Positions 1 to 40,700 of a DNA stretch of 64,000 bases are shown piece by piece. Every line of letters begins with the position of its first letter. Positions within the stretch are counted from its first letter, which is position 1. The notes beneath the pieces are model-generated. The model did not search any database. It had not been told where the DNA came from and worked only from the letters and a program-made list of their open reading frames with translations. A program made the translations under genes and the position numbers. The DNA comes from Hirudinaria manillensis (taxonomy: Eukaryota > Annelida > Clitellata > Hirudinida > Hirudinidae), in assembly GCA_034509925.1 (NCBI GenBank), contig CM067527.1, positions 13,599,001 to 13,663,000 of the forward strand, written 5' to 3'.

Positions 1-203
1 CTGAACATGCTGAAGGACAGAATGGGACTTAGATAATAATTCGGTGGATTTTATCAAAATGCGAAGGTGTTGAGTTTTTAAGTTTAAAAACTTGTTTTGT
101 TAAAATAGTTCGAATTATTATTTTAATGTTTTTTTGGTCCCGCCCCTTCCTCCATTGTTGGTTGTTTCGCGTTCTTGGTGTGAGAATAAAGTTACCGCAA
201 TAA
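1..203. other. unassigned flank
   Basis: AT-rich sequence with no recognisable gene. Similarity to the inverted duplicate arm at 19685-21057 starts only at about position 204, so this is unrelated DNA outside the duplication. Confidence 0.5.
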
Positions 204-435
204 AACTAACTGTCGTAAAAGTTTCCCTAAATTTGATGTTTTTCCCTCAAATGTCATCAACCGCTCCAAGGCTATGTTTAAATTCCTTATTTGCACCCAC
301 AATCAAGTCAGTTTATTGCACATAAATCCAATTCTTAAACTTATATCAAACTCATCATTTATGAATTTAATTGATAATAAATATTATTTATTAATAAGTA
401 ACATTTATCCATTAAATAGCTCAGTTAATTGTTAT

Positions 436-656
436 TGTTGTAACCCGGGGTCTGATGAATTAATTAACGTAAGGATATCTTTATTGGATTTAACTAATGG
501 CAATTACGGCTGGACGACTTGGTCGATTGCTTGTCCTGACGGAACTGCCTAATGACTCGAATCGCTAGATTCGACTTCGAAATAAAAGATTCTGAATATT
601 AACTAAACTTAATTAATTAATTATTTAATTAATTAATTAATGTCAGGGATCCAACA
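436..656 (-). repeat. 3' LTR of the full-length Ty3 element
   Basis: 221 bp, identical by eye to the other LTR at 5678-5898. It contains a run of TTAA-rich repeats near the plus-strand right end. Confidence 0.9.
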
Positions 657-667
657 TTGCCCCCTCC

Positions 668-3600
668 TTAAATCTGTTCGTCCCGAACAGGCTGTTCTGT
701 CTCGCCGTGGTATTTTGCTAATCGATTGCTGTGGACCACTTTCATTCTAGTCCTTGCTGATTTCTGTATGCGGTATACCACGTCGTTTATTTTCTTTATG
801 ATTCGGTATGGTCCTTCCCAATCTTTTTGTAACTTTGGCGACTTCCCTTTTTTTCGTTGGGGGTTGTATAGCCAGACTAGTTCATTTTCTTTAAAGCTTA
901 TATCATTGGCTTGCCTATCGTATCTCGCTTTGGCTTGATCGCTATTAACACTAATATTTTTCCGGGCAACCTGGTGTGTATCGGCCAATGTATTTCTTAG
1001 GCTTGAAACGTAGTCACATGCCGACTTAGGTTCCTCTGCTCTTCCGAACATCATATCGGCAGGAAGACGAATCTCCCTCCCGAATGTCATTTTCGATGGA
1101 CTGATTCCTGTCGTTTTATGCACGGCTGTCCGGTAGGCCATAAGGAAAAGTGGCAGGTATCTGTCCCAGTCATCTTGCTGTTCACTTACCATTTTTGACA
1201 AATACTGTTCCATGGTCCTGTTAAATCTCTCGACCATACCGTCCGATTGCGGATGCAATGCAGTGGTTCTTGTTTTATGTATTCCAAGGTTTTCGCATAG
1301 CTCTTGAAATATTTTCGACTCGAAATTCCTTCCTTGGTCCGAATGTAACTCTAATGGCACCCCGAATCGACTAATCCAATTATTTACGAGAGCATCAGCT
1401 ACATTTTCCGCCTCCTGATTTGGCAGTGCAAACGCTTCGGTCCATTTGGTGAAGTAATCGCTGATCACTAATATGTACCGATTTCCCTTCTTTGATGCAG
1501 GGAATGGTCCGGCAATATCCAAAGCTATTCTTTCAAAAGGTACTCCCACATTATAGGGTTGCATTAGTCCTTTAGTCTTCTTTTGAGGACCTTTACTGGT
1601 TGCGCAATTATTGCACTTTCTACACCACTCCTCAACGTCTTGTTTGTAGTGCAACCAGTAAAACCTCTCCCTCACCTTCCTGATGGTTTTATTCACTCCT
1701 AGGTGTCCACCTGAGGTTCCGTTATGGAATTCTTGTAACACCTCAGAGACGCGAGATCTCGGAAGTACTATTTGAAGGTGATAGTCGGTGCCATCCTCTG
1801 TTTCCCACTTCCTATGTAGGAGTCCATTACTAATTCTCAAGGAATCCCATTGTGCCCAATAGGACTTAGTAACTTCTCCGTGCTCCGCTATCTGTTGCCA
1901 ATCTGGTTTCACCCCGGCCTCCATCCACTGTAGTATGGGTGCAAGTGCTTCGTCTCTTAATTGCAGATCTCGTAACCCGCTTTCTGTCCAGGGTTCGGGA
2001 GTCGTGATACGAATTTGTCGACATTCTTCGGTCTCCTGTTTTTTCTCCGCGTTGTTGCAGTGTCTGCAGTTAAGTTGACAAGGACGTCGTGATAGCGCAT
2101 CAGCGTTGTTGTGTATTTGACCTCTCCTGTGTTCAATATTGAACTGAAAACCCTGTAGTCTTTCAATCCACCTCGCCATTTGACCTTCTGGGTTTTTAAA
2201 GTTCAACAGCCACCTCAGAGAGGCGTGATCCGTTCTTAGCAAAAACGGCTGGCCCAAAAGATATTTCTGGAAGTGTTTCATGGATTCTACTGCTGCTAAT
2301 AATTCTCTCCTGGTTACGCAATAGTTTCTTTCCGCTTTGGACAGTGAACGGCTATAAAATGCCAGAACTTTTTCTTCGTTTCCAACCTGCTGGGAAAGAA
2401 CTGCCCCGATTCCACAGTTACTGGCATCTGTATCGAGGATAAAAGGTAATCCGGGAATAGGATATGCCAGGATCGGTGCCGTTGTCATAGCTTCTTTCAG
2501 ATTATCAAATGCTTTCTCACAGCTGTCGTTCCAGATAAATGGCTTGCCTTTTACAGTAAGCTCATGAAGGCTTTTTGCGATGTTTGAAAAGTTGGCAATA
2601 AATCGTCTGTAATAGGTACAAAGTCCTAAGAAGCTTTGAAGTTCTTGGATATTTTTGGGTACAGGCCAATTTTTTACTACCTCGATTTTATCTGGATCTG
2701 TACTAACACCTTCAGAAGACACGATATGGCCAAGGTATTTGACTTCTTTTTTAAAGAGTGAGCATTTCTTTGGACTCAGTTTCATGCCTGCCTCTCTAAT
2801 CCTACTAAACACTTCTCGGAGGTTGTCTAAATGTTCTCCAAATGTTTTTCCGACAACAATTATGTCATCTAAATATACCAGGCATACTTTCCAGTTGAGT
2901 CCCCTTAGTATGTGTTCCATTAATCTTTCAAACGTCGCGGGGGCATTGCATAGCCCGAACGGCATGACAGTGAATTGCCATAATCCTTCACCTGTCGAGA
3001 AGGCCGTTTTTTCTCTATCGTCAGGATGTAACTCCACCTGCCAGTAACCACTTTTGAGATCTAACGTGGAAAAAATTTTTGATCCCGAGAGAGTGTCTAA
3101 AGTATCATCGATTCTAGGTAAGGGGTAGCTGTCCTTAAGTGTCATTTCGTTCAGCTTTCTATAGTCGACACAAAAACGAAGTGATCCATCTTTCTTTTTA
3201 ACGAGTACCACTGGTGAGCTCCAGGGGCTATTTGACGGTTCAATAACCCCTTGGTCTTGCATTTCTTTTATCATTTCCTTGGCGTTTGCTCTTGTAGCTA
3301 ACGGAAGTGGACGGGGGTTTTGTCGAATGGGTTTAGCACCGGCCGTATTTATTTGATGTTGCACGAGGTTAGTCCTACCCAAAGGGCTGTCTTGTTCAGC
3401 CATTATATCCTGAAATTCGCTAAGCAGCTTTTCCGCTTGTTGATAATCTTCTTTTTGTAGGGTTTTGTTTAAATCTTTCAGGAGATTGTCCACCAATGGT
3501 TTAGGCATGGCATCCCTTTTTATATGCTTATTTCCACTTCCATCTAATGTTAATATGTGTTCTAGGTTCCTGCAAAGTGCGATAGGTGTTCCTGCTTTGA

Positions 3601-5677
3601 TCTGTTGTTCCTGGTCAGATAGATTCATTACCCTCAGTGGAACTCTGCCGGTGTTTAGCTTGACTAGTGCTCGTCCTATTAGTAGTCCTTGGCCAATGCC
3701 CGATTGATCTTCGACTGCTCCTATACCAAATTTTGTGTGGTCGCCCTCTAGCCCGCCCCAAATTAAACTTTCCGACTGTGCTGGGATGGTCTCGTCCTGC
3801 AATACTTTTACAAATGTGTCTTTAATTTCTGTACCCCCGTAATTTAAAGGAATCTCCATCGTTCCTTGTTGAAGGGTACCGCCCTTCATGTCAATGGAAA
3901 TTCCATAGCGTCGCATGAAATCCAATCCCAGTATACATTCATCTGTTATATTGGCTATCATAAATTCCTGTTCGAATGACTTGCCTCCTAAATTCACTGT
4001 AATAGTTGTGGTTCCTTGAACTGGCACTAATTCTCCGGTGGTTGTTTTTAGCTTGTAGTTGTTGGTCGTTACTTTACTGTTTCCTGCCAACTTTGGTTGG
4101 ACAATAGATGTAGATGCCCCTGTGTCTATTACAAGATTATATTCCTTCCCTCCAATTTTTCCTTTAACCTCTAGTGATGATCCTTTTCCCAATGCCGTAA
4201 CGTGAAAGACGAGTGGGGCATTTCGAGTTTGCTGAAACGATCTTTGCCCCTTAAAATCAGAAGCTTCAGGTTTTTCTGATTTATAGGGCTCTCTCCAGTA
4301 CTGCTGTTTTTTGGAGAAGGTCGTTCTACATTCTCGGGCTAAATGGCCTGGCTTGTTACACCTGAAGCACCTTGGTCTTCTATCTATTTCCTGGAATCTT
4401 AAGTTTCTTTGGGGCTTGCTGAAGTCATTGATTTGTCGGGCTATTTTTTTAATCATCTCTCTGTCTTTGTCATTATCTTTATCTTTCTCCTTGCCTCTGT
4501 TTTCCTGAGCTTCAATTTTCTTTACATTCAAGCTTTTTTGGATTGAGGCTCTTGCCGCTTCTATGGAGATTGCAAACGCCAATGCTTCATGGCTGGCCTT
4601 TATTCCATGAATTTTTAGTGCCATTTTGGTTTCCGCATCCCTTATCCCATCAACGAAGGCGTCAGTTACAATGTTTTCAATGAAATCTGTTGACTGTCCT
4701 GGATGGGCTAAGTATGCGAGCCTTCTGACATCAGCCTCTAATTCTTGGAGTGATTCGCCCTGTTTTTGCGTACGGTTTTTTAATTCGTTTTTATGTACTT
4801 CCAGCATGTGGCCATTCCCAAATCTTCTTTCCATTGCTTCTGCTATCTCCGAATAAGCTTTACAGTGCAGCATTGTTTGCAAAAGCTCGGCTGCCTTTCC
4901 TCGCAGTATCATTATCAGCTCTGTTGCTTTTTCCTCTTCGGTCCACTTGTTACGTTCAGCGGCAATTTCAAACTGATGTCTGAACACAGCCCATGGCCCT
5001 TGTCCGTCGAATAATGGTGGTCTTGTCGTTTTCTCTCTTCCATATGTCTCTGTTTTCGATTCATTGTATTTTTTAAATTTCTCTCTTTCTTTTCTCTGTT
5101 CTTCTTTTAGTCCATCTATTTCTGCTCTGACCTGTTTTCTTAAGTCGGCCATCTCCTGTTCCGTGTGTGATATGAGGTTGGCTACGTCAATTTTTACCTC
5201 TTCCCGTAGGACATCCATGGCTACCTGGAAGTTGGCTATATCGGATTTCACATCTGACCGCAAAATATCATTGTTGGATTGCATATCTGACTGCAGAGTA
5301 TCAATGTCATATTTCATATCTGACCGCAGAGCATCAATGCTGCAAATCATATCTGACCGTAAAACATTATTGTCGGATTTCATATCTGACCGCAACGCAT
5401 CAATGCTGCAAATCATGGCTTCCCAATCTTTGTGAACCCCAAATTCATACTCCGACGGATCGTGATTATTTTCCAAAAGCCATTCCTCGAGCCGTCCTTG
5501 TAGTTCGGCTTTTAGGCCAGTTGCGTCCAGGCCTCGATTCTTTAGTTCTCGTCTCAAATCGGGAACGCGCAAATCGTCCAGTATTTTAGGTCCCATTTCT
5601 GTCGTCAAAAACTCGCTGTCTTTACCTCTAGTGAATCGATATCTCTTTACGACGTTAAATCCCACTCCTGACACCAA
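668..5677 (-). CDS. gag-pol: gag-pol polyprotein with N-terminal SAP domain, Ty3 type
   Basis: Single uninterrupted frame of about 1669 codons; the first ATG is at 5596, giving about 1642 residues. Order, numbered on the open frame: SAP DNA-binding motif at 31-66 (LRVPDLRRELKNRG); coiled coil with repeats of the type SIDALRSDMK at about 90-145; gag core at 217-380; CCHC zinc knuckle CFRCNKPGHLARECR at 437-451; aspartic protease VIDTGAS at 516-522; reverse transcriptase with YLDD at 935-938; RNase H with LDTDAS; integrase with zinc-binding region, catalytic Asp-Asp-Glu core (ALDIAGPF, HSDQGRNF) and a GPY/F module near the end. The product would make particles, copy RNA to DNA and integrate. 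No envelope gene is seen. Gag and pol share one frame with no frameshift. The SAP domain is an uncommon addition. Confidence 0.95.
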   Translation of the reverse strand: MVSGVGFNVVKRYRFTRGKDSEFLTTEMGPKILDDLRVPDLRRELKNRGLDATGLKAELQGRLEEWLLENNHDPSEYEFGVHKDWEAMICSIDALRSDMKSDNNVLRSDMICSIDALRSDMKYDIDTLQSDMQSNNDILRSDVKSDIANFQVAMDVLREEVKIDVANLISHTEQEMADLRKQVRAEIDGLKEEQRKEREKFKKYNESKTETYGREKTTRPPLFDGQGPWAVFRHQFEIAAERNKWTEEEKATELIMILRGKAAELLQTMLHCKAYSEIAEAMERRFGNGHMLEVHKNELKNRTQKQGESLQELEADVRRLAYLAHPGQSTDFIENIVTDAFVDGIRDAETKMALKIHGIKASHEALAFAISIEAARASIQKSLNVKKIEAQENRGKEKDKDNDKDREMIKKIARQINDFSKPQRNLRFQEIDRRPRCFRCNKPGHLARECRTTFSKKQQYWREPYKSEKPEASDFKGQRSFQQTRNAPLVFHVTALGKGSSLEVKGKIGGKEYNLVIDTGASTSIVQPKLAGNSKVTTNNYKLKTTTGELVPVQGTTTITVNLGGKSFEQEFMIANITDECILGLDFMRRYGISIDMKGGTLQQGTMEIPLNYGGTEIKDTFVKVLQDETIPAQSESLIWGGLEGDHTKFGIGAVEDQSGIGQGLLIGRALVKLNTGRVPLRVMNLSDQEQQIKAGTPIALCRNLEHILTLDGSGNKHIKRDAMPKPLVDNLLKDLNKTLQKEDYQQAEKLLSEFQDIMAEQDSPLGRTNLVQHQINTAGAKPIRQNPRPLPLATRANAKEMIKEMQDQGVIEPSNSPWSSPVVLVKKKDGSLRFCVDYRKLNEMTLKDSYPLPRIDDTLDTLSGSKIFSTLDLKSGYWQVELHPDDREKTAFSTGEGLWQFTVMPFGLCNAPATFERLMEHILRGLNWKVCLVYLDDIIVVGKTFGEHLDNLREVFSRIREAGMKLSPKKCSLFKKEVKYLGHIVSSEGVSTDPDKIEVVKNWPVPKNIQELQSFLGLCTYYRRFIANFSNIAKSLHELTVKGKPFIWNDSCEKAFDNLKEAMTTAPILAYPIPGLPFILDTDASNCGIGAVLSQQVGNEEKVLAFYSRSLSKAERNYCVTRRELLAAVESMKHFQKYLLGQPFLLRTDHASLRWLLNFKNPEGQMARWIERLQGFQFNIEHRRGQIHNNADALSRRPCQLNCRHCNNAEKKQETEECRQIRITTPEPWTESGLRDLQLRDEALAPILQWMEAGVKPDWQQIAEHGEVTKSYWAQWDSLRISNGLLHRKWETEDGTDYHLQIVLPRSRVSEVLQEFHNGTSGGHLGVNKTIRKVRERFYWLHYKQDVEEWCRKCNNCATSKGPQKKTKGLMQPYNVGVPFERIALDIAGPFPASKKGNRYILVISDYFTKWTEAFALPNQEAENVADALVNNWISRFGVPLELHSDQGRNFESKIFQELCENLGIHKTRTTALHPQSDGMVERFNRTMEQYLSKMVSEQQDDWDRYLPLFLMAYRTAVHKTTGISPSKMTFGREIRLPADMMFGRAEEPKSACDYVSSLRNTLADTHQVARKNISVNSDQAKARYDRQANDISFKENELVWLYNPQRKKGKSPKLQKDWEGPYRIIKKINDVVYRIQKSARTRMKVVHSNRLAKYHGETEQPVRDEQI
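5661..5676 (-). other. primer-binding site (tRNA-Leu type)
   Basis: On the minus strand it reads TGGTGTCAGGAGTGGG, one base after the LTR. It is complementary to the usual metazoan leucine tRNA 3' end including CCA. The same site occurs at 39589-39604 and at 12721-12736 (minus). Confidence 0.85.
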
Positions 5678-5898
5678 TGTTGTAACCCGGGGTCTGATGA
5701 ATTAATTAACGTAAGGATATCTTTATTGGATTTAACTAATGGCAATTACGGCTGGACGACTTGGTCGATTGCTTGTCCTGACGGAACTGCCTAATGACTC
5801 GAATCGCTAGATTCGACTTCGAAATAAAAGATTCTGAATATTAACTAAACTTAATTAATTAATTATTTAATTAATTAATTAATGTCAGGGATCCAACA
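5678..5898 (-). repeat. 5' LTR of the full-length Ty3 element
   Basis: 221 bp, preceded (minus strand) by the TTAT duplication and followed by the primer-binding site. It should hold the element promoter and start of transcription. Confidence 0.9.
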
Positions 5899-6008
5899 TT
5901 ATATAATCTTTATGATTGCAAGTCTTGTGTTTTTAGGATATTGATTTATGCAACCTCAAAGAAAAATTTGAGGATGAAATCAAGGCATCAGTCACAACCA
6001 ATCCTTAG

Positions 6009-8493: not shown

Positions 8494-11400
8494 ATGGCGG
8501 CAAAAGTTACCACTCTGACGATTTTTATCGTTACGATGATTGAAGCAGGTTTTTACGATTTATTGTCTTATTTGATTAATTATTTTTTAAATTGACTTAG
8601 GTCGACTAATTTTATTTATTCATCTTTTTGGAGACACCAAAATTAACAACACCACACAAATTGGAAAATAAAAAAAAATATAACGGTGAAACCAAAAGAT
8701 GCCCGGATGGAATTATTCCCGCTGAGGAGACAACCTATTTAATGAGATAGAATTAGATCGATTATTGGCAGCACTAACGTTAACTTATTTAACTACAGCG
8801 GTTTATGAAAAATTCGAATTTTACGAGCAAATCAGGTACAACTTATATAATTTGCTGATAATTGATAATTAATAGAAAAATGTCTCAAAGTTGTTGCCTT
8901 CCTAATTCTCTAAATACAAAATTGATGTCTGAAGCAGGATTTATGATTTTTTAAATTTTATAATTTTATATGATCATTGAATAATTAAATTAATTATATT
9001 TAATTACAAAAATTTCTCAACTTTATTGTTGCTTTACCTTTTTTTCCTTTCCACTTCAATACTTTTTTCAATCATTTGTCAACTCTTTAATTAAGTTCAA
9101 ATTTGATTAAATTGAGGTTCATTGATTAATGGAAATAGGGTTTTAACTATAATAATAATAGCAATTCATTAAAGGTATCTAATAAATTCTATTATCCTAT
9201 ATTATTTAAATTGGCGCTAGCTATTACATAAAGGTTAGTTAATATCTTTTTAAAAATTAAATACTTAAATAGCGATGAAGGTGGATAGATCCGTGTTCAG
9301 AGAAAATAATCCCGTTGACTTGGATTGCAATCATGGACTTGAAAATGTAACAAGAGTCAGATGGGAATACATTTCAACCTATGACATCAGAAGTGAAATC
9401 ATCTACGACAGCCAATTTTCCAAGCAATTGAAAGATGGTTTTGAAGTCTCCTGTCAACCTCATCAAAAATTTATATCAATGTGCACCCTCAAACTGTGTC
9501 GAGCAAGGAAGGAAGATTCAGGAAAATATGTTTGCTCTGTTCAAGAGGAAAATATAACATTGTCTGATATAGATTTCCTGAAGTCCATCATCGAAATTGA
9601 ATTAATAATAAGAGGTAATATTTACAATTCATTAATAAGAATAATAAAAACATGATTTTAATATTTTAATACTATGACACTTTAAACTTTTTTAGAGAGA
9701 AAAATTAATTAATTAATAAATGACTTCATTATAGGGCCGTTGCATAAAATGATGGTAGCAAGTCATGGAGATCCAGTGATTCTTCCATGCGAACATAACA
9801 GGAAAAATATAACAAGAACAAGATGGAGTCACATCTCACTTCAGGGTGTTTTAAATTACAATCTTTATTATGTGAATGGCAAGGCCACATCCACTCCTAA
9901 TTATGATGGTGACTGTGGACCTCACAAACCTTATTGCAATTTGAAAATACTTCAAGCGAACAGGGAAAGTACAGGAAGATACATTTGCATGATTGGAGAA
10001 TCACAAGAGTTTGAAAAGAAATATGGATTGTTTCAAATGACATATTTCATTGAAATACAACTTGTTCTTGGAGGTAACTTGAGATTTTTTGTGATCAATT
10101 TAATTTCGTTTATATTTTGTCATAAAAAATTAAAAAAACAGACTTTTTCAACGATAATGTAAATCTGTAGATCCAAATTATTTGGTAATTTTTATTTTAA
10201 AAATAGCAGTAAGGCACGTGATGTTTGACAGGTAAGTAAAGCCGGATAAGATTTAAAATGACAGAATTTTTCTTAAGTAAAGAGTGTTATTTATTTTAAG
10301 AAATTGCGAAATAATTTTCCACGCAAATAACGTGATAAAAAAATAAATTTTAAGATATTACTGAAATTTAACAAAAATTAAAAAAGTTTAAATTGATTAA
10401 TAATCTTATCAATTAATAAATCATTTAATTTCCTCAACTCAAGGTCAAATATTTATTTAGTTATTATGGAAATGGCTATTTATTTTAAGTTAATAAATCA
10501 GGACCAATGTTTAAACATGTATTCCATTAAACTCTTCAGGTTTAACTAAATTGCATTATCAAATCCCTATAGCATTGACATGTGATAATGGTATGAATAA
10601 AGAACATGCTTTCATTGGAGAAAATGATTGCTATGGAATAGAAGCAGATGTTTTAAATCTGAAATGTTCTTTCAATTACTTTGGCAACATCAATTATAAC
10701 CTTCTTCATCTCAGATGGATTGAAAAATATAAATTTAATTCATTGGAAAAGAAATTAAATTCATCACTAATAAACCATGAAGTGAAAGATGAAACAAAAA
10801 TTATTTTAATTCAAACCAGCTTATCTGTTGCTTATGAGATGCAAAACTCAATATTTCAATGTGTTTTGGATGATACTTTGGTCAAACCATGTCAGTTGCA
10901 AGAATTCAGGATTCAATGTGAGGTTGATTGGTTGATTTAAGTATAAATTAATTAATAATGTTGGATCCCTGACATTAATTAATTAATTAAATAATTAATT
11001 AATTAAGTTTAGTTAATATTCAGAATCTTTTATTTCGAAGTCGTATCTAGCGATTCGAGTCATTAGGCAGTTCCGTCGGGACAAGCAATCGACAAAATCG
11101 TCCAGCCGTATTTGCCATTAGTTAAATCCAATAAAGATATCCTTACGTTAATTAATTCATCAGACCCCGGGTTACAACATTGGTGTCAGGAGTTGCAATA
11201 ATTGCGCAACCAGTAAAGGACCTCAAAAGAAGACTAAAGGTCTAATGCAACCTTATAATGTGGGAGTACCTTTTGAAAGAATAGCTTTGGATATTGCCGG
11301 ACCATTCCCTGCATCAAAGAAGGGAAATCGGTACATTTTAGTGATCAGCGATTACTTCACCAAATGGACTGAAGCGTTTGCACTGCCAAATCAGGAGGCG

Positions 11401-14400
11401 GAAAATGTAGCTGATGCTCTCGTAAATAATTGGATTAGTCGATTCGGGGTGCCATTAGAGTTACATTCGGACCAAGGAAGGAATTTCGAGTCGAAAATAT
11501 TTCAAGAGCTATGCGAAAACCTTGGAATCCATAAGACAAGAACCACTGCATTACATCCGCAATCGGACGGTATGGTCGAGAGATTTAACAGGACCATGGA
11601 ACAGTATTTGTCAAAAATGGTAAGTGAACAGCAAGATGACTGGGACAGATACCTACCACTTTTCCTTATGGCCTACCGGACAGCCGTGCATAAAACGACA
11701 GGAATCAGTCCATCGAAAATGACATTCGGGAGGGAGATTCGTCTTCCTGCCGATATGATGTTCGGAAGAGCAGAAGAACCTAAGTCGGCATGTGACTACG
11801 TTTCAAGCCTAAGAAATACACTTGCCAACACACATCAGGTTGCCCGGAAAAATATAAGTGTTAATAGCGATCAAGCCAAAGCGAGATACGATAGGCAAGC
11901 CAATGATGTAAGTTTTAAAGAAGATGAACTAGTCTGGCTATACAACCCCCAACGAAGAAAAGGGAAGTCGCCAAAGTTACAAAAAGATTGGGAAGGACCA
12001 TACCGAATCATAAAGAAAATAAACGACGTGGTATACCGCATACAGAAGTCAGCAAGGACTAGAATGAAAGTGGTCCACAGCAATCGATTAGCAAAATATC
12101 ACGGAGAAACAGAACAGCCTGTTCGGGACGAACAGATTTAAGGAGGGGGTAATGTTGGATCCCTGACATTAATTAATTAATTAATTAAGTTTAGTTAATA
12201 TTCAGAATCTTTTATTTCGAAGTCGTATCTAGCGATTCGAGTCATTAGGCAGTTCCGTCGGGACAAGCAATCGACAAAATCGTCCAGCCGTATTTGCCAT
12301 TAGTTAAATCCAATAAAGATATCCTTACGTTAATTAATTCATCAGACCCCGGGTTACAACAATAATAATAAACAAATTAATAATAATCCTGACACGGAAC
12401 TGCTTTGTCTTCCAGAATGTCCCAATGCTCTTCCTCCACTCATCTCTGCTCTTCTTCAGAATTTCATTAATTTCATCCATTTTTTTTATAAAATTGATCC
12501 TCGAATTCGTATTCCTCCGGGTCATGGCCATTTTCTGTCAGCCATGCCTCAAGTCGTTCCCGTATCTCAGCTTTCGTGTCTTTCCAATCCAGGCCTTGAT
12601 CTCTCAATTCTTGTCTCAATTGAGGCATGTACAATTCATCCAAGATCAATGTCATCCTTCATTTTGCCAACTAATCAAGCCTCTACCTTAGTAAATCTTG
12701 GATCCACTCTAACTCTAAATCCCACTCCTGACACCAATGTAAGAACCAGGGGTCCTCAAACTAATTATGGAAGGTCAGGTTTATTGAAAGTGTTCAGATG
12801 GCTTGGAAGATATACAATTCTCAATTGTCTAAGTCTTAGATTCTGCTGTTTCTCCTACTCTTGCTCTGCTTTTAGAGATAACTCTATTTGTCGAGATTCA
12901 TAATCAAAGACTCTGAATAATGCCCTGAACATTAATTAATTAATTAATTATCAAATTATATTGCCAATTAATTAATTAATTAATTAATTACTAAATTAAA
13001 TAAACAGCAATATAATTTAATTATTATTTAATTATCTGGATCCAGGGATCCAACAATATTATATTTGTGGTTAAATAATTCAGATTATTTATATCATTAA
13101 CATTGCATAGTTTTATTAATTACCACATGCTAATGAGTCTCTCTTGAACTAATCTTATGTCACAAATGCTGTCTATGATTAGTTGTGCATTGAGAAGTAG
13201 TGGATTTAGGAGATGTAAATTATATCAATGTGAGGTTTCACATCATTTAGTTTAGAATTTGTGATGTTAATATCTCTCGATATATTTTCATTTAATAAGT
13301 AAATGTCAATAAATAAAACAATAGTCACGTTGGATATTTTTGATTTTGCTCTTTTTTTTACTAAATTGATATTGTAATAACCCGGGGTCCTCAAACTAAT
13401 TATAGAAGGTCAGGTTTATTGAAAGTTGTCAGATGGCTTGGAAGATGCACGATGCTTCAAATGTCTAAGTCTTGAAATCTGCTGTTCTCTAATTCTCGCT
13501 CTACTTTCCGATACAAATCCATTTGTCGAGGTGCATAACCAAAGAGTCTGAATAGCAACAATTAATTAATTCTCAAATTATATTGCCACTAAATTTAATT
13601 AATTATTAAATTAATTAATCGGCAATATAATTTTAATTATTATTCAATTTATTGGATCTAGGGATCCAACAATATTTACTGACAAACAAAGTAAAACAAA
13701 AGTGTTGATAACTTTTTTTGATTTGTTTGAAGATATCAAAAACACCACAAGAAGATCTCCACCCATGCAGTCAAATTATCTCCACACCATAAAATGTTCG
13801 GCCAACAAAAGTGAAAATGTCCACTGCTCGTATTATTGGGTTCATGAAATTGGAGGTGCTAAGGTTCAAAATCCACGTGCAGTCTTACCTGTTGAACACA
13901 TGAATTCACCTGGTTTTTACACCTGTATTGCCAAATGTAACCTTGGAAAACATGAACAATGCACCATCAAAGCAATGGAGTTTGAAGTTATTCTTGAACC
14001 AGGACAGTCAGCAACAAATATAGGTCAGTGTATTTAATTCCAAATTGACATTTGAAGCTCAAAATTCATTTCTGAATTACTTTTTCTTATACTAGTCCTT
14101 CTTTGCTTTCAGGAATGATGTCAACATTGATTGCAATAATAGTTATATTACTTATAATAATAATAATAATATTAATACTTTTTCTGAAAAGGTTTGAGTT
14201 GTAATTCATTGAATTGCAAATAATGTTTTATAATTAATATTTTACAATTAAAGATATTTCAAGTCAAGAGGTATGGTCTATACATTCAATTGTTTATTTG
14301 ATCAAAATACTTTCATTAAATTTAATTTTTGTTGAAAATCTCCAAATTTTGTTCATTTTTTATGATAAATCAGAACAACAATTTATTAAACCTGTTCATT

Positions 14401-17400
14401 GTTGAATTTATCTAAGTGAAAGGTCCCCAATCTATCGAAAACCAGGGATTGTATTCAAACGAAGACAACATTAAATGCAAACAAATAACAGGTTTATATT
14501 TGGAAACTTAAAAAACAACTCATAAATTGCATAAAATGTTCATTGAACCACAAAATTAAATTAAATAATTGATTTATAAATTGAAGATGTTTTGTGCTTA
14601 ACATTCATTAATAACATTTTATTCCTATTTTGATTCAATTTCATTGAATTAAGTTCTTATTAATATTTTGATAATTATTAAGGTGTAGAATTTAAAATTA
14701 ATAGATATTCAAGATAATTAATAAATAAATGTTGTTAAACATTCACATCCGTTATACTACTTATGACATTATGTAACATTAACTAATAAACATTCATTTA
14801 TGAGTAATTTTTGAAAAATGATGAAATATTTTCAAAATATTGATATTTCTTTATTTTAAAGCAAAATACCACCTTTTTTTTATGTATTATTCGTTACTAT
14901 TCTAATTTTATTTGCATTTCCAGTTAATAAAATTGAATTATAAATAAATAAATAATATTAATTACAATTCAATTTTCAGAATCAGAGATTATTAATCTTT
15001 CTGGCAAGTCATTTTATCCATTTGAAGTCAAACAAATTCTTGAAAAAGAATTTTCTGAAGATGGTAAAATTGTGATTTATGAATCGTAAGTGATTTGAAA
15101 CTTATTGAAGCAAATTAAAAATATATTATTTTAAAGAAAATGTATTTCATTCTTTTAACAAATTTATAAACAAGACATTTAATTTTAATTTAATTTTATT
15201 CAAAATAAAAAAATAATAATAATAATTTGTTTGTCACTAATGTTAACAAAAGCAGTGTTATATTTTCTTATGCTCATCACAGTCATGTGTTACTTAATTT
15301 ATGTGTTGCTTAACATTTAAGTATTTCAATTGTTAACACATTTGAGGAACACTGAATGTCAAAATATCAGTTCATCCCCAAATAAATAAATTTTAAATAA
15401 ACTTTTTTTTAAATTTTAGAAAACACCCTGTTCATAAAAAAGTGTTGGTGGTGAATGATGCCATGTGGGATACCAGTTGTGAGAAGACTTCTCGTTTAGA
15501 GGAATTAATTCAAGATCTGCTTCGTTGTCACCAAAACCCAAAGAAAGTAAATATTAGTTTTAATGAAATAAATTTAATTAATAAATAATTAATTAATTCT
15601 AAACATCTTACAAAACACTGAGTAAAGCATTATCACAAAATGTAATTTATCTTTAAACTGAATGAGTCAAAAAATTATTTATTAAACATTATAATTTTTA
15701 AAATAATTAGATTTTTAAATATTTTTAAATATTAGCTTAAATTAGTCAATATTTCTATTACTCACTTTTCTTATATTAAGTCTCAATTTAACAATTATGT
15801 TTAATGATGTTGTTATTATTATGAATAAAAATTAAAATATACAAATGTTTGAACCAAGATTTTGGTATTTGGAACATGTGAAGGAAGAATTGTGAGGGAG
15901 TTGTTGGAGCATGGAACTGTTGAATCCATAACTTTGGGCAAAACTAATCATGAAGAGGTCACAAGTTAATTGTCAAAAAGATTGGTTTTTTTTAATTTTC
16001 AAAATTATTCATTGTGTTTTAAATTATTAATTTAATTAATTTATTGCTTCAATCATTTTCATGTAGGAATTTGATAATCTATATTGTGAATATTTTCCTG
16101 AAATGGCTTCCTATCTGGATGATCCAAAAGTCCACAAGTTAAATGGAGGCATTGAATTATTAAAGAATCAACAAAATGCATTTGATGTCATCATTATTCA
16201 TGTAACAGCAACTGAAAGAAGTGGGTGAAATTATACTTTTATAATAATGCATAATTGATAACATCAAAATAAATTATGTGAAATGCAATTAATAAATTAA
16301 AATAATACAGGTCTATCTGATTACATACGCAATGAGGAACATTTAAAATCCATTAAATCAGCAATTAAAGAAGAAGGGATTCATATGATAATGGGTTGGT
16401 TGCATAATATTATAATTGTTAAGCATAAATTATATTTATTATTATATAAATTATATAAAATTATATAAATTAGAACCAATATAATTGATGTGTCCATGCG
16501 AATGTCTTGGAAGACAAGCAAAGATAACACAACAGGTCCAACAATAACATCATTATTCCTAAATAACCAAGATTCAAAGTTCTAAAACTTATCAACACTG
16601 ACATTGTTATGTTTTTATATTTTCAAACGTCAAGAACAGTAATTATATTTAAACTTTATTCACACGAATTCACACTCAGCAACGAATATTTAAAGTCCGT
16701 TAAATCAGCACTTGAAGAAGGAGGGATTCATTTATTAATATTATAATTAATTAAAATAATTTCAATATAAAATATAGTACATAGAATTCTGGTATTTATG
16801 ATAGTAAAAATATTTATATTGATGTGGAAAATAATATTTATTAAATATGTTTGAATTAAGTATATTATTACATGAGAGTTATTGTAATAATGTTTAAATG
16901 ATCAATATTACAACACAACAATCAAATCACAGATATAATACGTTTGTGTCATTATTTACATTTTATTGTCTTTTAGTGTCAGGGGAGGGTTCTCAATCCT
17001 TAGCGTCAAATGTTCTACTTAAGAATAAATCCATTTATGGGAAATATTTTCCTGAAGTCAAGTATCATCAATTCTATAATTTCAGTTCTCAGTTTAAACA
17101 TTACAGTTGTCATATAAGATGTCTCCTGGTTGGTCCTAATAAGGTTAGTCTGCTCCCACCTTGTATTTTGTTAATAATAATTATTAATTTAACAATTATA
17201 TTTGTTCACTTGATTGCATAAAACTTGAATGTGAACAATGCATTGATTTTATTTGAATTAATAAACTTTTATTGCAAATATTTCTTCCTCTTTCAATAAA
17301 AATAACAAAAAATTATCTTAAAATTAATTTATTTCAACAGGAATGCTTTGCAGAACTTTATGCAAATGAGATTAAAAGATGGAAAGATGAACATAAACAC

Positions 17401-17409
17401 CAACGGTGA
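8494..17409 (+). CDS. receptor gene A: four Ig domains, transmembrane helix, cytoplasmic spermidine-synthase-like pseudoenzyme
   Basis: Exons by eye: 8494-8548 signal peptide (MAAKVTTLTIFIVTMIEA); Ig1 9273-9614; Ig2 9735-10073; Ig3 10540-10917; Ig4 13733-14023; TM 14113-14191 (isoleucine-rich helix then KR); then 14980-15085, 15420-15546, 15859-15957, 16067-16220, 16311-16394, 16983-17143, 17341-17409. Each Ig domain has the paired cysteines, a core Trp (RVRWEY, RTRWSH, LRWIE, YYWVHE) and a Y/F-x-C end; Ig exons are phase 1-1. The cytoplasmic part follows spermidine synthase: EVKQILEKEFSEDGKIVIYES, HQNPKK before LVFGTCEGRIVRELLEHG, a YCEYFPEMASYLDDPKVHK helix, FDVIII and GIHMIMGE. The catalytic DSSDP-like segment is HVTATERS, with no Asp, so catalysis is unlikely. 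A small linker exon between 14191 and 14980 is needed for phase but was not resolved. Role in recognition is inferred. Confidence 0.85.
10959..12361 (+). mobile_element. internally deleted Ty3 element in the Ig3-Ig4 intron of gene A
   Basis: LTRs at 10959-11179 (221 bp) and 12153-12361 (209 bp, shorter by 12 in the TTAA tract), flanked by ATAA (10955-10958 and 12362-12365). It belongs to the family of the intact element at 436-5898. The interior jumps from the primer-binding site directly into the zinc-binding end of integrase; gag, protease, reverse transcriptase and RNase H are gone. LTRs, most of the primer site and the purine tract are kept, so it could be mobilised in trans. Confidence 0.92.
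11245..12141 (+). pseudogene. integrase remnant of the deleted Ty3 element
   Basis: 298 codons from the first ATG, open to the stop, nearly identical to the last 298 residues of the intact gag-pol (a few changes, such as Ala to Asn-Thr region near LANTHQ and Asp for Asn in KEDELVW). It holds the catalytic core with IALDIAGPF and HSDQGRNF and the GPY/F end WEGPYRII. It lacks a gag-pol start, so it is a left-over of an internal deletion. Confidence 0.85.
12362..13055 (-). mobile_element. truncated non-autonomous SAP-domain LTR element
   Basis: Minus-strand 5' LTR at 12738-13055, then the tRNA-Leu primer site at 12721-12736, then the start of a SAP-domain reading frame. The 3' part is missing, cut near the neighbouring deleted Ty3 element. 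It is related to the complete copy at 39291-41081. Confidence 0.8.
12392..12655 (-). pseudogene. SAP-domain protein fragment of the truncated element
   Basis: The minus strand reads LDELYMPQLRQELRDQGLDW and then a segment ending NGHDPEEYEFED, as in the complete element at 39669. A run of A shifts the frame around 12480, after which KKMDEINEILKKSRDEW continues in another frame. It is broken and truncated. Confidence 0.8.
13373..13671 (-). repeat. solo LTR of the SAP-element family
   Basis: 299 bp from TGTAATAACCCGGGG to GGATCCAACA, flanked by ATAT on both sides (13369-13372 and 13672-13675). No interior remains, so it arose by recombination between two LTRs. It lies in the Ig3-Ig4 intron of gene A. 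Confidence 0.88.
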
Positions 17410-20712: not shown

Positions 20713-23105
20713 CTAAGGATTGGTTGTGACTGAGGCCTTGATTTCATCCTCAAATTCTTCTTTGAGGTTGCATAAATCAATATCCTAAAAACACAAGACT
20801 TGCAATCATAAAGATTATATAACAATTAGCTGAGCTATTTAATGGATAAGTGTTACTTATTAATATTTATTATTAATTAAATTTATAAAGTGTATAAATG
20901 ATGAGTTTGATATAAGTTTAAGAATTAGATTTATGTGTAATAAACTGACTAGATTGTGGGTGCAAATAAGGAATTTAAACACAGCATTGGAGCGGTTGAT
21001 GACATTTGAGGGAAAAACATCAACTTTAGGGAAACTTTTACGACAGTTAGTTTCAGCTTGTTCCAGAATATTTTCCTCTGTCTCTCCCATGACTGCAAAA
21101 ATAGGAAGCATTATTATATCATTTTCAATTAAAATGTTATCAGTGGCTATCCCATAATTATATTAATGCAAATGCAACGTTTTATATTGCTGAATTTAAC
21201 TAACAGATTAAAGAAACAATTCCTCCTTCTTTAAGTGCTCTTAGGAGTTCCTCAAAATATCTCCCACTGATCAGGTGAATATCTACAAATAATGTTGCTT
21301 AATCTAATTCTAGATAATATAATGGCAGTGATATTGTCATATATAATATGTCCCACGTTACATAATTAGAGAATATTATTACGTGACCACATAATATAAT
21401 TTCACATGGCATTCATGATCTTTTGAATATCTGTATATATATTGTGACTAATAAACTGGCTTAAATTAAAAATCACACAATAAAACACACACATTAAATC
21501 AGTGATCAATTACATTAATCAAAACATAACAGATATCATTAAGAAAATATATATATATATAAATATTAATATTTTAAGAACAGTCTCACCCACTTCTGCA
21601 ACGATGTGTGTGGTTTATGATGACATCAAAAGCCTTTTCTTGTCTCTTTATAAACTCAATTCCATCTATTATGGATTGTTTTGTTGGATTTTGAACGATG
21701 AGTTCAACTTTAGGATGTTCCAAATAACCAGCCAATGAAGGAAAATATTTGCAGTAAAGTTCATATATTTCCTGTATTTGAATATGAACAAGTTGTTTGG
21801 GATGCACATTAAATATAAATTCTCATTAAATTTGTGACCAACACATTTTTAATCAAATTAAGCTCATTGGGATATAAGATACCAATTGAAAAATGTGGCC
21901 TTTACATAAGAAAAACACATAAATGATGTACTACGATGGGTAGGAATCATGACAATAAACTACATGTATATATATCAAATAACATTATAAGGACAAACCT
22001 TATTCGACTCAAAGACTGTAATATTGAATTCTACAAATTTTTTGCTTTCCAGAAATTCCAACAATCCTTTCACAATTCTTCCTGTACCTATTCCAATCAA
22101 CAAAATCTGCAGGAAAACAAATTTAACTAAATTTTATGCCAAGAAAGAATTCAACAGTTTTATTTGATTTTCCCATTTTCACTGCCTTGTAAAAGCACTG
22201 TGTTTTTTTAATCACAAAGACTATTTTGAATTAAATTTAATATATTCAACTTATTATAATGAAATCATTTCATTATTATGTTCCTGTTTATCTACTAACT
22301 AACTAAATACTAATTTATTAACTAACATCCTTTTATCAATTTGCCTTCACACATTAATCCACTCACATTTTTTGGATTTGGATGACTAGAGACTTGAAGT
22401 TTGGACAGAATTTCCAGTTCACTAACATAATCTTCTTCTCTTTCGTAGATGACGTCATCAATTGTTAACACTTTGCCATCCACATGCCTAAGTGTTGCAT
22501 TAAATATGAAGAACATAGTAGAAATTGCAATTATTATCTTATTATTATTTATTACCTTAACTTATTATTACTATTATTCATTACCTTAACCTTAACTTTC
22601 ATGGCTTGTTTAGGATCAGTTGTTGTTATTTGATTTTAAAAAAGGAACTTCTGTTGTTATTCACTTGAAATGCATATTTTCAATGTTTTCAATGTCTTTC
22701 AAGAAAATCTCATGATAATCTTTGCAACTTTATTTAAAATTTTTTAAATATTTGATTGTCACTATCATCTGTTATTACCTAATAACAGTATTGATCATAA
22801 AATAATTTAATTAAAAAATTTAATTTATTATTAAATTAATTTAATTTGTTAAAATTAAAAATCCAGCTGGATGAGACAAGAATGCTTAAAAGTGAAAATT
22901 TAAAATTTTGTAAGTAAAAAAGTTTCCATTGAAACAAATCACTCACGACTCTTGGATCTTTACAAGACCTTCACCAATTATTTGCTTTTGGTACCGAACT
23001 TTGGCCTTCTGTTAAATTAATTGTATTATTTTATTAATTAAAGTGATGCTGTTGTTTTGTAATTCAATGTAATTATTAAAATAATAATTAAAATACCTCT
23101 CCCAT
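20713..23105 (-). CDS. gene B: free-standing spermidine-synthase-like protein without Ig or membrane part
   Basis: Exons: 23097-23105 (MGE), 22947-23008, 22367-22487, 21999-22106, 21590-21771, 21205-21266, 20950-21092, 20713-20784 (stop TAG). All junctions are in phase. The fold order is that of spermidine synthase: IIGEGLVKIQES, a GKVLTIDDVIYERE strand region, HPNPKN before LLIGIGTGRIVKGLLE, NITVFESNK, YCKYFPSLAGYLEHPKVE, FDVII, LKEGGIVSL then MGET. The Gly-rich nucleotide loop (GIGTG) and the acidic residue at the end of the second strand (FES) are kept, unlike the receptors. The catalytic DSSDP-like segment is NHTHRCRSG, with no Asp. No signal peptide, so probably cytosolic. It may bind an adenosyl compound without making polyamine. 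Its exon junctions match those in receptors A, C and D, so they share origin. Confidence 0.85.
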
Positions 23106-24534: not shown

Positions 24535-24639
24535 TATTCATCATGGACGGAGTTAATGAAAAAACAAAAAAACTGTAGCGACATCAGAAACTAAATTTTA
24601 TGTACAAGTGATATTATAAATAATTATTACAAAAGTTAC

Positions 24640-25600
24640 AAATAAATTCAACATCATTCCAGTCACGACTCCCCTCTCCAATACAACGCTTGTGCATCCA
24701 CCTCTGGCATTGGGGACATTCGACCCACAATCCATCCTCATTGCCTCCGCAATATAGACACGAATCAATCATACTGGAGGAAGTTTTCAATATTTGCAGT
24801 TGGTAGTGATTCCTACGTTCTTGAGGATCAAAAGGTTTCGTAGGGTCACCACCACTGCCCAGACTTTTGACAAATTCGATTAAAAAAATGCCTCAATTGT
24901 GGTCGTCAACTTGTCTGAAATGTCGAATTGAGGTTAAAGGGAAGGTAAGCCATTCCTCGGCTACCTTCCAATGAGGTTTTACTGAAAAGAGAAATTCATT
25001 GAATTTCGTGGCTTCATTGATATTGAGTGCTTCATCCAGGGGGTCGTACCACACTATTTGTTTTGTTACTTTGTCAATGACAAAGCAAACAAAATGTGTG
25101 TCGCCCCTGGTAAGACGAGGGAAAACAAACCATCTTCCCGGTATGGATCTTCATCTGATCGGTAAAGACTCAAAGTAGGTGACTTCATATCGACCATTGG
25201 CGATGGCTTGATGACTTACCATGGCGGGAATATATGTCACCCCGACTGGTTTTATCACCGCCATCACTATATAGTCGATTGAGGTTGATGATAGCCAACT
25301 ATTATCGAAGAGAGTTCGAAAGTCCTCGAGAAATATGGCATGCTGCCCAGACCTGGCTAGCGCTGAGGAGTTGTGAAGAATAGATCGGATACATTACAAG
25401 GGAATTTTTCAACATTATCGAGTTGAGTCGATTTTCAGGCCTAAATCCTACGTTGAGATGCTTACTAAGCACCTTCAAATCTTTCATTTTTTCGAAATAG
25501 GAAGTGCCCTTTTCTTGCCTGCGCTCGTAATAACCTCTATGTCCCGCGTAATCTTGATAGCCGAATCAACCAAAGCTTTGTAGAATTCCATAGCAAGTGT
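24640..25600 (-). pseudogene. C48 (Ulp1/SENP-like) cysteine protease with C-terminal PHD finger, inactivated
   Basis: The minus strand, with frame changes, reads FDNSWLSSTSIDYIVMA, then THFVCFVIDKVTKQIVWYDP with the catalytic His and Asp pattern of C48 peptidases, then QVDDHN followed by TGA (24893-24895) and GIFLIEFVK. In C48 enzymes this segment is Q-x-x-x-x-C-G, so the stop stands where the catalytic Cys belongs. A second TGA interrupts near 25150. A PHD finger follows: CLYCGGNEDGLW, then VECPQCQRWMHKRC. Such proteases may cleave SUMO-type conjugates; the PHD may bind chromatin. The gene is dead as written. Confidence 0.75.
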
Positions 25601-37767: not shown

Positions 37768-40700
37768 TCACCATTGGTCTCTATAAGGCCAATCTTTGAA
37801 CACATCTTCATAATGATTTTCAAAATATTCCTGTAATTAGATTTTAATAATTATTTTTAAGACAATTGATTTTTATTCTTGTTGGGAGAGGAAGAGGTAA
37901 TTGCAGTAAAAATTTATCATTTCCAATAACTTCAATTCATATCTTAACTGCATATTTTATACCATTAAATGGACAAATGTAATTGGTTAAATTGTTATTA
38001 ATGAAAAACAGGTTGTAAGCAAACTAACCAAATCAAGGACACATACGAGACATCTTGTAAGACATTTGGAATTATCAAAGAAAAGGGAATTATGGACTTC
38101 AAAACATTTAACCATAGGAAAATGTTGCTCATAAAGGAATTTAATCTCCTTTTGAAAAGAATTCCAGTTGATGTTGAATTTCAAATCTTCTCCTGATGTT
38201 ATAACAAACAGCAACTTGAAAGTAGTGGATTGAAAGTCTTAATATTGATCATTTTAAATATTATTATAATAACTTTTCATGTAATGACATACTTAATCCA
38301 TGCATATTAAATGTATATATATATATTAATAATATTTTAATAATTTTTAATATTTAAAAATTCCATGATTTACACTGACCTTATTTTTAATAATTGTAAT
38401 AATATGCAACCAACCTATTAATAAATGAATCCCTCCTTCTTTAAGTGCTGATTTAACAGATTTTAAATTTTCATCACGGAGTAGGTATTCTGAAAGACCT
38501 GTAATTAAGTATACCAATTACTTGCATTTTACATAATTTTAATTTTTGTTATTATGAATTTTTATAATAGCTTATATTTAATTTTATTTATTAATTTTAT
38601 TACGAAGTAATTGTCAATTATACATCATTAAAATAAATCATACTCTGGTAACACCTAATTTTAACTGAACATTAATTAACCAGCTAATTAATTTAATATA
38701 AAAGTATTATTTCACCTTTAAGAGATGTTGCTATACGAGTAATGATGACATCAAATGCTTTATGTTGATTCTTTAATAATTCAATGCCTCCATTTAACTT
38801 GTGGACTTTTGGATTATCCAGATAGGAAGCCATTTTAGGGAAATATTCACAATACAGTTTATCCAATTCCTGCATTCCAACAGGAAATTGCACAGGACAT
38901 TAAAATTAGTTAAATTATAATAATATATGAAAAAACAATAACTTGATTGAATAATTAATAAAATAGGCAATAACACATAATTTTAACTGAACATTAATTA
39001 ACCAGTAAACTGGTTAAACAGTTAACTATTAAAAATAGTAAAAAAGTAATACAATAAGTTCATCAAAATATTGCTTTGATAATTAACTTATGACCTTTGT
39101 CCGATTGGTTTTGCCCAAAGTTATGGATTCAACAGTTCCATGTTTCAACAACTCCCTCACAATTCTTCCTTCACATCTTCCAACCACCAAAACCTATGAA
39201 AAGATAAATACTGTCACAAAGGCTGCAATAAAACTTCTGGTTCTGACTTTATTAATTTAATTTTTATTTATAACAAATATTTAAATATATTGTTGGATCC
39301 CTAGATCCAATAAATTGAATAATATTTAAAATTATATTGCCGATTAATTATTTTAATAATTAATTAAATTTAGTGGCAATATAATTTGAGAATTAAATTG
39401 GTGCTATTCAGACTCTTTGGTTATGTACCTTTGACAAATGGATTTATATCGGAAAGTAGAGCGAGAGTAATAGAAACAGCAGATTTCAAGACTTAATCAA
39501 TTAAGCATTTTACATCTTCCAAGCCATCTGACAACTTTCAATAAACCTGCCCTTCTATAATTAGTTTGAGGACCCCGGGTTATTACATTGGTGTCAGGAG
39601 TGGGATTTAGAGTTAAAGGGTATCCAAAAGTAACTAAAGTAGAAGCTTGTTTAGTTGAAAAGTGAACGATGCCGAAGTACTTGGATGAATTGTACGTGCC
39701 TCGATTGAGACAAGAATTGAGAGAGCGTGGCCTGGATTGGAAAGGCACGAAAGCTGAGATACGAGAGCGACTTGGGACATGGCTGACAGAGAATGGTCAT
39801 GACCCAGAGGAATACGAATTCGAGAATCCATCCCATAAAAAGATGGATGAATTTCTTGATTTTATGAAAAAGTCCGTAGATGAGATGAGGGAATGTATTA
39901 GGAGTATTAGGGGTGATTTGAAAAACAGAGGGCTTCCATGCCAGGATGTCTCGTTGGCTTCGGGTGAAGACTCTGCCGAGAAGAGTCCCGTTGGTTCTTT
40001 TGAGGAGAGCAAAGTGGTGCTTCCATCTTGCGAAGAACAAGGAGAGGAACTCTGCAAAAAGGTTACCAACGAGGAACAAATCATGTCCGTTGTTCCAGGT
40101 ACCGTTTCTGGCAGCGTTGGGATGGAGTCATTAGAGGGCACATCCAACCACAGTGCGTGTGTGTCTCCAGAAGCTCTGTGCGTGATGGCAGACTTAGGGA
40201 ACTCGACGTTGGAGCCCATAGAGTTACCAGATCAGGTCGAGTCGTCAGCAGGGCCCAGAGAGCTCACGGAGGTTTTAGTGGAGCAAGTGGGGCTTTCGGA
40301 GGAGCCTGTGGGATTGCCGGTGGATCATGTGGAGTTGTTGGTGCAGCTCGAGGAGTTACTGATGAGTCACGTGGAGTTGCCGGTGGAGCACACGGATTTG
40401 ATGGTGGAACAAGTAGAGTCTACAGAACAGCCCATGGATTTACCAGCGGATGTTTCGGCTCCATTGGAAATAACAGAAGGGAGTGCTCGGGATTTCAGGA
40501 GAATGCCTAGCATGGAAAGTGGAGCAGGTGATCCTGAGGAGAGTCTGGGATCTGGCGACATCGTGGAGCAAGAGAGTGTGCATAGAAATGGCGATGTTCC
40601 GCGGCTGAAACTTGCGGGACGCAGAAGTAAAAGGGAGGAGACAGAAATCCCAGAAGATGGCAAAGCAAATGGATCTGGGATTTGCAGCCATGAGATTGTT

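Follow-up and report, generated by a model that had tools for sequence, protein, structure and literature searches.

Candidate immunoglobulin receptors with a spermidine-synthase-derived pseudoenzyme tail in the leech Hirudinaria manillensis

Introduction

Some receptors carry a pseudokinase or another dead enzyme domain as a tail behind their membrane helix. Here we describe a leech gene family that appears to share this layout, with tails whose fold and origin differ from those of the known cases. Its first member, gene A, lies in a 64,000-nucleotide stretch of the genome of Hirudinaria manillensis (NCBI GenBank assembly GCA_034509925.1, contig CM067527.1, here C2:13599001-13663000), which we call the window; positions are those of the window unless a contig is named. 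Gene A is predicted to encode four immunoglobulin (Ig)-like domains, one membrane helix and an intracellular domain derived from spermidine synthase that lacks the catalytic residues of the enzyme.

The leech genes resemble Ig-superfamily type I receptors in their V-set-like Ig domains encoded by phase 1-1 exons, their single membrane helix and a putative signal peptide, but differ in adding an intracellular aminopropyltransferase-derived domain. That domain has a core homologous to the PF01564 core of spermidine synthase (SRM), an enzyme that also has a PF17284 N-terminal domain, and it shares exon joints with the leech's own enzyme gene. Unlike SRM, however, the leech tails lie behind an Ig receptor, have lost the start codon, the catalytic residues and the C-terminal domain, and give no PF17284 match. 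According to the account of the enzyme in PMC12812037, Asp173 deprotonates putrescine, which Tyr241 and Tyr79 help to position, while the ribose of decarboxylated S-adenosylmethionine (dcAdoMet) is held by the side chains at Gln49 and Glu124. A further parallel is the trypanosome S-adenosylmethionine decarboxylase (AdoMetDC) prozyme, a polyamine-pathway paralogue that has no catalytic activity and offers a precedent for regulation of an active partner; it is nevertheless a different enzyme, and a receptor is not part of its description as given in PMC5201418.

As read from genomic DNA, the domain architecture reported here is real and repeated, and we found no earlier description of it among the literature matches listed, which were covered by titles and the beginnings of abstracts, with subscription papers and preprints outside that coverage. 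In the main texts of the genome papers the words 'spermidine' and 'immunoglobulin' occur 0 times.

Results

Gene A joins Ig exons to synthase-like exons

A preliminary description of positions 8494-17409 had proposed an Ig receptor whose cytoplasmic part is a spermidine-synthase-like pseudoenzyme. When spliced on paper from genomic DNA, both sets of exons are present there and form a gene of 14 exons on the plus strand, with 13 of 13 junctions of the GT-AG type and a single open frame of 768 amino acids.

Exons of gene A:
8494..8548, plus strand: exon 1, which carries the start codon and a probable signal peptide (MAAKVTTLTIFIVTMIEA), the latter judged by eye; phase 0-1
9273..9614, plus strand: Ig1 exon, phase 1-1 (spliced model, Pfam)
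9735..10073, plus strand: Ig2 exon, phase 1-1, the closest to V-set (spliced model, Pfam)
10540..10917, plus strand: Ig3 exon, phase 1-1, donor GTGAGG
13733..14023, plus strand: Ig4 exon, phase 1-1 (spliced model)
14113..14191, plus strand: isoleucine-rich transmembrane exon, phase 1-2 (spliced model, hydropathy)
14254..14270, plus strand: tentative 17-nt linker exon, phase 2-1, placed from phase; the near-copy n5 has the same 17 nt and a GT donor
14980..15085, plus strand: synthase-like exon s1 (beta domain), phase 1-2 (match to solved synthases)
15420..15546, plus strand: synthase-like exon s2, phase 2-0 (match to solved synthases)
15859..15957, plus strand: synthase-like exon s3, with GTCEGR in place of the enzyme's GGGDGG
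16067..16220, plus strand: synthase-like exon s4, in which His replaces the catalytic Asp173
16311..16394, plus strand: synthase-like exon s5 (spliced model)
16977..17143, plus strand: synthase-like exon s6 (spliced model)
17341..17409, plus strand: last exon, s7, with the stop codon (spliced model)

Several details of the first proposal required adjustment. The four phase 1-1 Ig exons stand, with the end of the Ig3 exon moved to 10917 (CAAT before the donor GTGAGG) to keep the phase. The isoleucine-rich membrane exon is also present; it exits in phase 2, and at least one small linker exon is therefore required before 14980. All seven synthase-like exons were recovered, with the motif HQNPKK now assigned to the start of the Rossmann core rather than to the beta domain, and the enzyme's C-terminal helical domain is absent. 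The putative signal peptides of genes A and B (gene B and gene C are described below) were judged by eye, and an N-terminal hydrophobic stretch exceeds the hydropathy threshold (1.6 over a 19-residue window) only in gene C, gene A staying below it. In each of the three genes one hydropathy segment lies at the position expected for the membrane helix, and gene A has one strongly hydrophobic stretch.

The profile search that had been suggested as a check matched the tail to the spermidine synthase family rather than leaving it without a match. The whole gene A protein scores 58 bits against PF01564 (E 1.2e-15; cut-off 22.9) and the tail alone 61.6 bits, while the outer part gives a V-set match of 31.4 bits (E 2.3e-07; cut-off 26). 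Compared with solved structures, the tail finds 25 distinct sequences at E <=0.001 (best 9.2e-17), including human spermidine synthase (2o05, E 1.9e-15), and it is 35% identical over 245 amino acids to the spermidine synthase of its own genome. Chance similarity is ruled out by the PF01564 match, by two more copies in the window and by repetition at 12 loci.

Two further observations concern the introns of this gene. A gypsy-type retrotransposon fragment, recognized by eye, occupies 10960-12370 within the Ig3-Ig4 intron, and its open reading frame (ORF) is closely like part of a long minus-strand ORF at 668-5701. An extra copy of exon s5 lies at 16666-16746 without an exon model in gene A; its counterpart in n5 (C2:13579609-13579710) is modelled with a GT donor, and this second copy is perhaps a former alternative exon.

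The architecture is repeated in the window and in the genome

Two more genes with both parts lie on the minus strand of the window, which also holds synthase-like copies of a distinct kind that we call D-type.

Further copies in the window:
54925-54874, 54541-54197, 53997-53659, 53510-53166, 52950-52672 and 52602-52530, minus strand: gene B from its first exon through the four Ig exons to the transmembrane exon (exon search, spliced model, Pfam, hydropathy)
51835-51805, 51726-51700 and 51497-51448, minus strand: gene B linker exons (exon search, spliced model)
50242-47811, minus strand: gene B synthase-like exons s1-s7 (exon search, Pfam)
43261..45895, minus strand: gene C from its first exon through the four Ig exons to the transmembrane exon (exon search, Pfam, hydropathy)
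42775..43191, minus strand: gene C, four cytoplasmic linker exons in an unbroken phase chain 2-0-1-2-1
37768..41895, minus strand: gene C synthase-like exons s1-s7 (exon search, Pfam)
20713..23008, minus strand: D-type synthase-like exons (PF01564, 61.1 bits), no Ig part found
202..6008, plus strand: remains of a fifth copy, D-type, with s6 at 202-303 and s7 at 5937-6008 and the gypsy-type ORF 668-5701 (minus strand) between them

Gene C is assembled from 17 exons with 16 of 16 GT-AG junctions into one open frame of 824 amino acids. Against the same Pfam cut-offs, PF01564 scores are 57.2 bits for gene C, 56.6 for the gene B tail and 61.1 for the D-type copy, and V-set scores are 35.5 bits for gene C and 31.3 for gene B.

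The Ig part of gene C, used as query against the 23 contigs of the genome (148,429,096 bases), gave at least 131 exon matches. Counted from the match table, there are 30 near-complete Ig3 exons of >=76% identity, distributed over contigs C2 (12), C11 (11), C13 (5), C1 (1) and C6 (1). Sixteen of these 30 cassettes were examined at sequence level, and in 12 of the 16 Ig3, Ig4 and s1-s6 are colinear on one strand; order and strand are identical in all 12 loci with both parts. The weakest exon calls among the 12 are at locus C1 (s1, E 0.04; s7, E 0.02) and locus C6 (s1 and s2, E 9e-4), exon s7 received no call in loci n1, n2 and C6, and a scan for hydrophobic exons found a candidate membrane exon in 11 of the 12, C6 being the exception. 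The four cassettes without the fused order comprise two C2 cassettes at 13.838 and 13.844 Mb, a C13 cassette for which only ~2.3 kb downstream was covered, and the C11 gene beside the intact enzyme discussed below. Judged from coordinates only, five further C11 cassettes have a PF01564 match within 8 kb downstream on the same strand. Over all 30 cassettes, 17 are linked to a synthase-like part and 1 adjoins the true enzyme.

In a midpoint-rooted tree of 17 tails, 11 fused copies cluster together (98/96) and the D copies stand apart. The tail of locus C6, which fills 40% of the columns, falls beside the two enzymes, leech and human (95/93); this locus possibly stems from a separate fusion. More synthase-like copies are present on C11 (519-534, 571.8 and 579.3 kb) with no close Ig match on the same strand. 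Three of these, at C11:519034-534607, have near-equal scores and follow one another in steps of 7-8 kb, with no Ig match between them.

The gene A tail had no match at E <=0.01 among 7980 candidates from a set of 5.8 billion proteins, and the whole gene C protein had one among 6197 candidates (E 0.46; 527 amino acids, with PF01564). This search needs shared words, and synthases of ~300 amino acids fall outside its query length limits; it says nothing on absence in other animals.

Catalytic residues are lost

Active-site positions were compared in 15 non-canonical copies, 12 fused and 3 D-type. Asp173 is replaced in 15 of 15, by His in 9 and by Arg in 6. Three other residues are lost wherever the position is covered: Tyr79 (14/14), Gln49 (12/12) and Tyr241 (10/10). 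Glu124 is retained in 7 of 14 covered copies and is Lys in A, B, C, c and n5, while Asp155 persists in 4 of 15 copies (C6 and the D type) and is Gly in 10. The intact leech enzyme keeps the catalytic residues that the fused and D-type copies have lost. Loss of catalysis is well supported by these alignments, and the tails are best regarded as synthase homologues from which aminopropyltransferase activity is not expected.

An intact enzyme gene suggests an origin by fusion

An intact spermidine synthase gene was read by eye on the minus strand of contig C11, from ~694.6 to 691.6 kb, with the motifs GGGDGG and DSSDPEG; it scores 253 bits against PF01564 and 76.6 bits against PF17284. Its intron positions agree by eye with those of the fused copies, the comparison through the exon finder having had phases imposed. 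For the same reason, equal exon length modulo 3 is not counted as evidence. Since introns are retained at the enzyme's positions, an origin of the tails as retrocopies is ruled out.

The ATG of the intact enzyme sits within the exon homologous to s1, and s1 of the fused copies starts beyond this start codon. In none of the 9 loci with an s1 model does an in-frame ATG occur upstream of s1 before a stop is reached, while a Met is present within s1 in B, C and d. Approximately 3.7 kb upstream of the enzyme, on the same strand, is an Ig gene of the same family that, by eye, has a membrane exon, a short tail and a stop codon of its own. This head-to-tail pair and the position of s1 past the enzyme's ATG fit capture by read-through, and they suggest that the family was born when an upstream Ig gene was spliced into the enzyme gene. 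The C11 pair could instead be a secondary arrangement.

The outer Ig domains diverge unequally

Ig1 is the most divergent of the Ig exons, with synonymous divergence (pS) of 0.457 within and 0.553 between chromosomes. Ig3 is the least divergent (pS 0.120 within, 0.182 between), and Ig1, Ig2 and Ig4 all diverge more. The inner part of the Ig3 exon (10540-10917 and its relatives) is nearly identical among paralogues, those on different chromosomes included, with nucleotide identities of 0.92-1.00 across 16 successive 15-nt bins. This pattern looks like either gene-conversion homogenization or strong constraint at the DNA level.

Other features of the window and the genome

Several other coding features were noted. 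An open frame of 385 amino acids at 39666-40823 (plus strand), with an N-terminal SAP domain (27.5 bits), lies inside an intron of gene C and is probably part of a repeat. A PHD finger at 24614-25600 (minus strand; 26.5 bits), beside a stretch that looks protease-like by eye, probably belongs to a mobile element. The window also holds an exon of a T-box gene (34367-34723, plus strand; 76.7 bits) and the C-terminal part of a rhodopsin-type G-protein-coupled receptor with long glutamine runs, muscarinic-like by eye (61594-62424, minus strand; 57.5 bits). Elsewhere in the assembly, C9:3026446-3027786 carries a COX1 match scoring the same as the mitochondrial one, which is either a nuclear mitochondrial copy or an assembly artefact. 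The mitochondrial COX1 itself shares 98% identity with Poecilobdella javanica and 96% with an entry labelled Hirudinaria manillensis, which leaves a slight doubt over the species name. RNA-seq and a BRAKER annotation are reported together with the H. manillensis assembly in PMC10671345.

Discussion

We propose that each unit is one gene that would give one transcript and one type I membrane receptor. Outside the cell there would be a signal peptide and four Ig-like domains, followed by a single membrane helix, and inside the cell a variable linker and a spermidine-synthase-derived domain without catalytic residues. The family would have originated when an Ig receptor gene was spliced into a spermidine synthase gene lying downstream on the same strand, past its start codon, and would then have spread by duplication. 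The least certain parts are that these genes form a surface recognition family with divergent outer Ig domains, and that the tail, performing no catalysis, is a protein-interaction surface whose partner would be another such tail, a sister receptor or the active enzyme. The Ig receptor with a pseudoenzyme tail put forward in the preliminary description is supported by the profile matches, the unbroken frames, colinearity at 12 loci, the missing start codon above s1 and the lost catalytic residues; the role in signalling or dimerization suggested there is a hypothesis. That the Ig and synthase-like parts belong to a single gene is likely from the genomic evidence; the complete statement, including fusion origin and recognition role, we hold with moderate confidence.

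A number of observations weigh against this proposal. The joining of the two parts is predicted from genomic DNA, and in gene B, where both halves are open, the linker chain is incomplete between the membrane exon, left in phase 2, and the first linker, entered in phase 1. Reading through the donor of the membrane exon yields a short tail and a stop (KRFEL and a stop codon in gene A). The position of this stop is shared by 7 of 11 loci (A, n5, n4, n3, B, C and C1); it may mark a second isoform or mere common descent. Twelve of the 30 Ig3 cassettes have no synthase-like match nearby at the thresholds used, although single-exon searches miss degenerate copies. Conversely, four D-type copies, one of them broken, lack an Ig cassette in the DNA examined. 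Upstream of one of these, D1, is a remnant resembling Ig4 (by eye; E 4e-5 at C2:13565471), and apart from it no receptor part was found in the aligned upstream DNA of the D-type copies. Pairing of the tails is burdened by the loss of enzyme domains: at E <=10, PF17284 gives no match in A, the A tail, the B tail or D, and at E <=0.01 none in C. The tails keep a diverged N-terminal part, and the enzyme's C-terminal dimerization domain is missing. With the N-terminal dimerization domain diverged and the C-terminal one absent, a simple dimerization model is therefore weakened.

Selection on the tails bears on whether they do anything. Over 55 pairs of 11 loci, the median nonsynonymous divergence (dN) is 0.32, the median synonymous divergence (dS) 0.545 and the ratio 0.58, with the 95% interval below 1 in 37 pairs; exons s2 and s4 are the most constrained (dN/dS ~0.43 and ~0.38, from means). 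Close pairs weigh on the other side, because intervals for A-n5 (0.83), A-B (1.14), B-C (0.84) and B-c (0.90) span 1 and are neutral-like, and A-c reaches 1.86 (1.20-3.29). Positive selection is not claimed, as only this 1 pair in 55 has an interval above 1. A tail that is joined yet idle, decaying after its capture with the synthase exons while the receptor works through its Ig and membrane parts, would account for these near-neutral ratios among A, n5, B, C and c and for exon s7, where mean dN (0.227) exceeds dS (0.098) over 4 loci. It would also suit the exons that are weak or unseen in n1, n2, C1 and C6, and a receptor that could stop after its membrane helix. Such decay is harder to reconcile with the constraint in most pairs and with the open frames of A, B, C, n5 and c, whose tails contain zero stops where a neutral branch of 7% predicts 2.4-3.8 (probability of none, 0.02-0.08 each). 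The absence of stops is a partly circular test, since the exon finder rejects stops; for A, B and C, models assembled by hand are also open. On balance we consider idle tails unlikely, while taking them seriously.

A different objection is that each unit comprises two neighbours that were duplicated together, one an Ig receptor with a short tail and the other an independent synthase-like gene or pseudogene. The shared short-tail stop, the synthase-like copies without an Ig part and the C11 Ig gene that ends in its own tail beside the intact enzyme are all as this account would have them. A separate downstream gene would, however, lack any in-frame ATG upstream of s1 at all 9 modelled loci and would be entered in phase 1. 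Moreover, the chain runs unbroken through the four linker exons of gene C, and order and strand are constant in 12 of 12 loci with both parts. We regard paired neighbours as improbable.

It has even less in its favour that the tail is a small-molecule sensor, binding a polyamine, methylthioadenosine (MTA) or dcAdoMet and coupling its level to the receptor. The Rossmann core is recognizable and some copies retain Glu124 or Asp155, but Gln49, Tyr79 and Tyr241 are gone wherever covered, and in most of the copies compared Asp155 has become Gly, with Lys at Glu124 in all of the close relatives A, B, C, c and n5; sensing of this kind is very improbable. An active membrane-bound spermidine synthase, for which only family membership speaks, is rejected as scarcely credible on the loss of Asp173 from every copy and of Tyr79, Gln49 and Tyr241 from every copy that covers them, residues that the intact gene elsewhere keeps.

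Returning to a receptor with a catalytically dead, interacting tail, we hypothesize by analogy with the prozyme that the leech tails may partner with the leech enzyme. In its most extended form, the proposal would be of a duplicating recognition system of leeches whose outer Ig domains vary while a homogenized Ig3 core is kept, and whose dead tail binds the enzyme or sister receptors, such that contact or immune recognition would act directly on polyamine metabolism. This extension is speculative, and we think it doubtful.

If the proposal is true, these genes would form a receptor family whose intracellular domain was captured from a housekeeping enzyme of polyamine synthesis. The same genome also has a plausible version of the parental layout, an Ig gene immediately upstream of the intact enzyme gene, so that a single species would allow study of how read-through fusion gave rise to the family, how catalysis was lost and how the copies multiplied. 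Should the tail signal, receptors would acquire the aminopropyltransferase fold as a further kind of intracellular domain, and surface recognition could be tied to polyamines. Leeches would also gain a candidate Ig receptor family, with 30 Ig3 cassettes, for work on immune or self-recognition.

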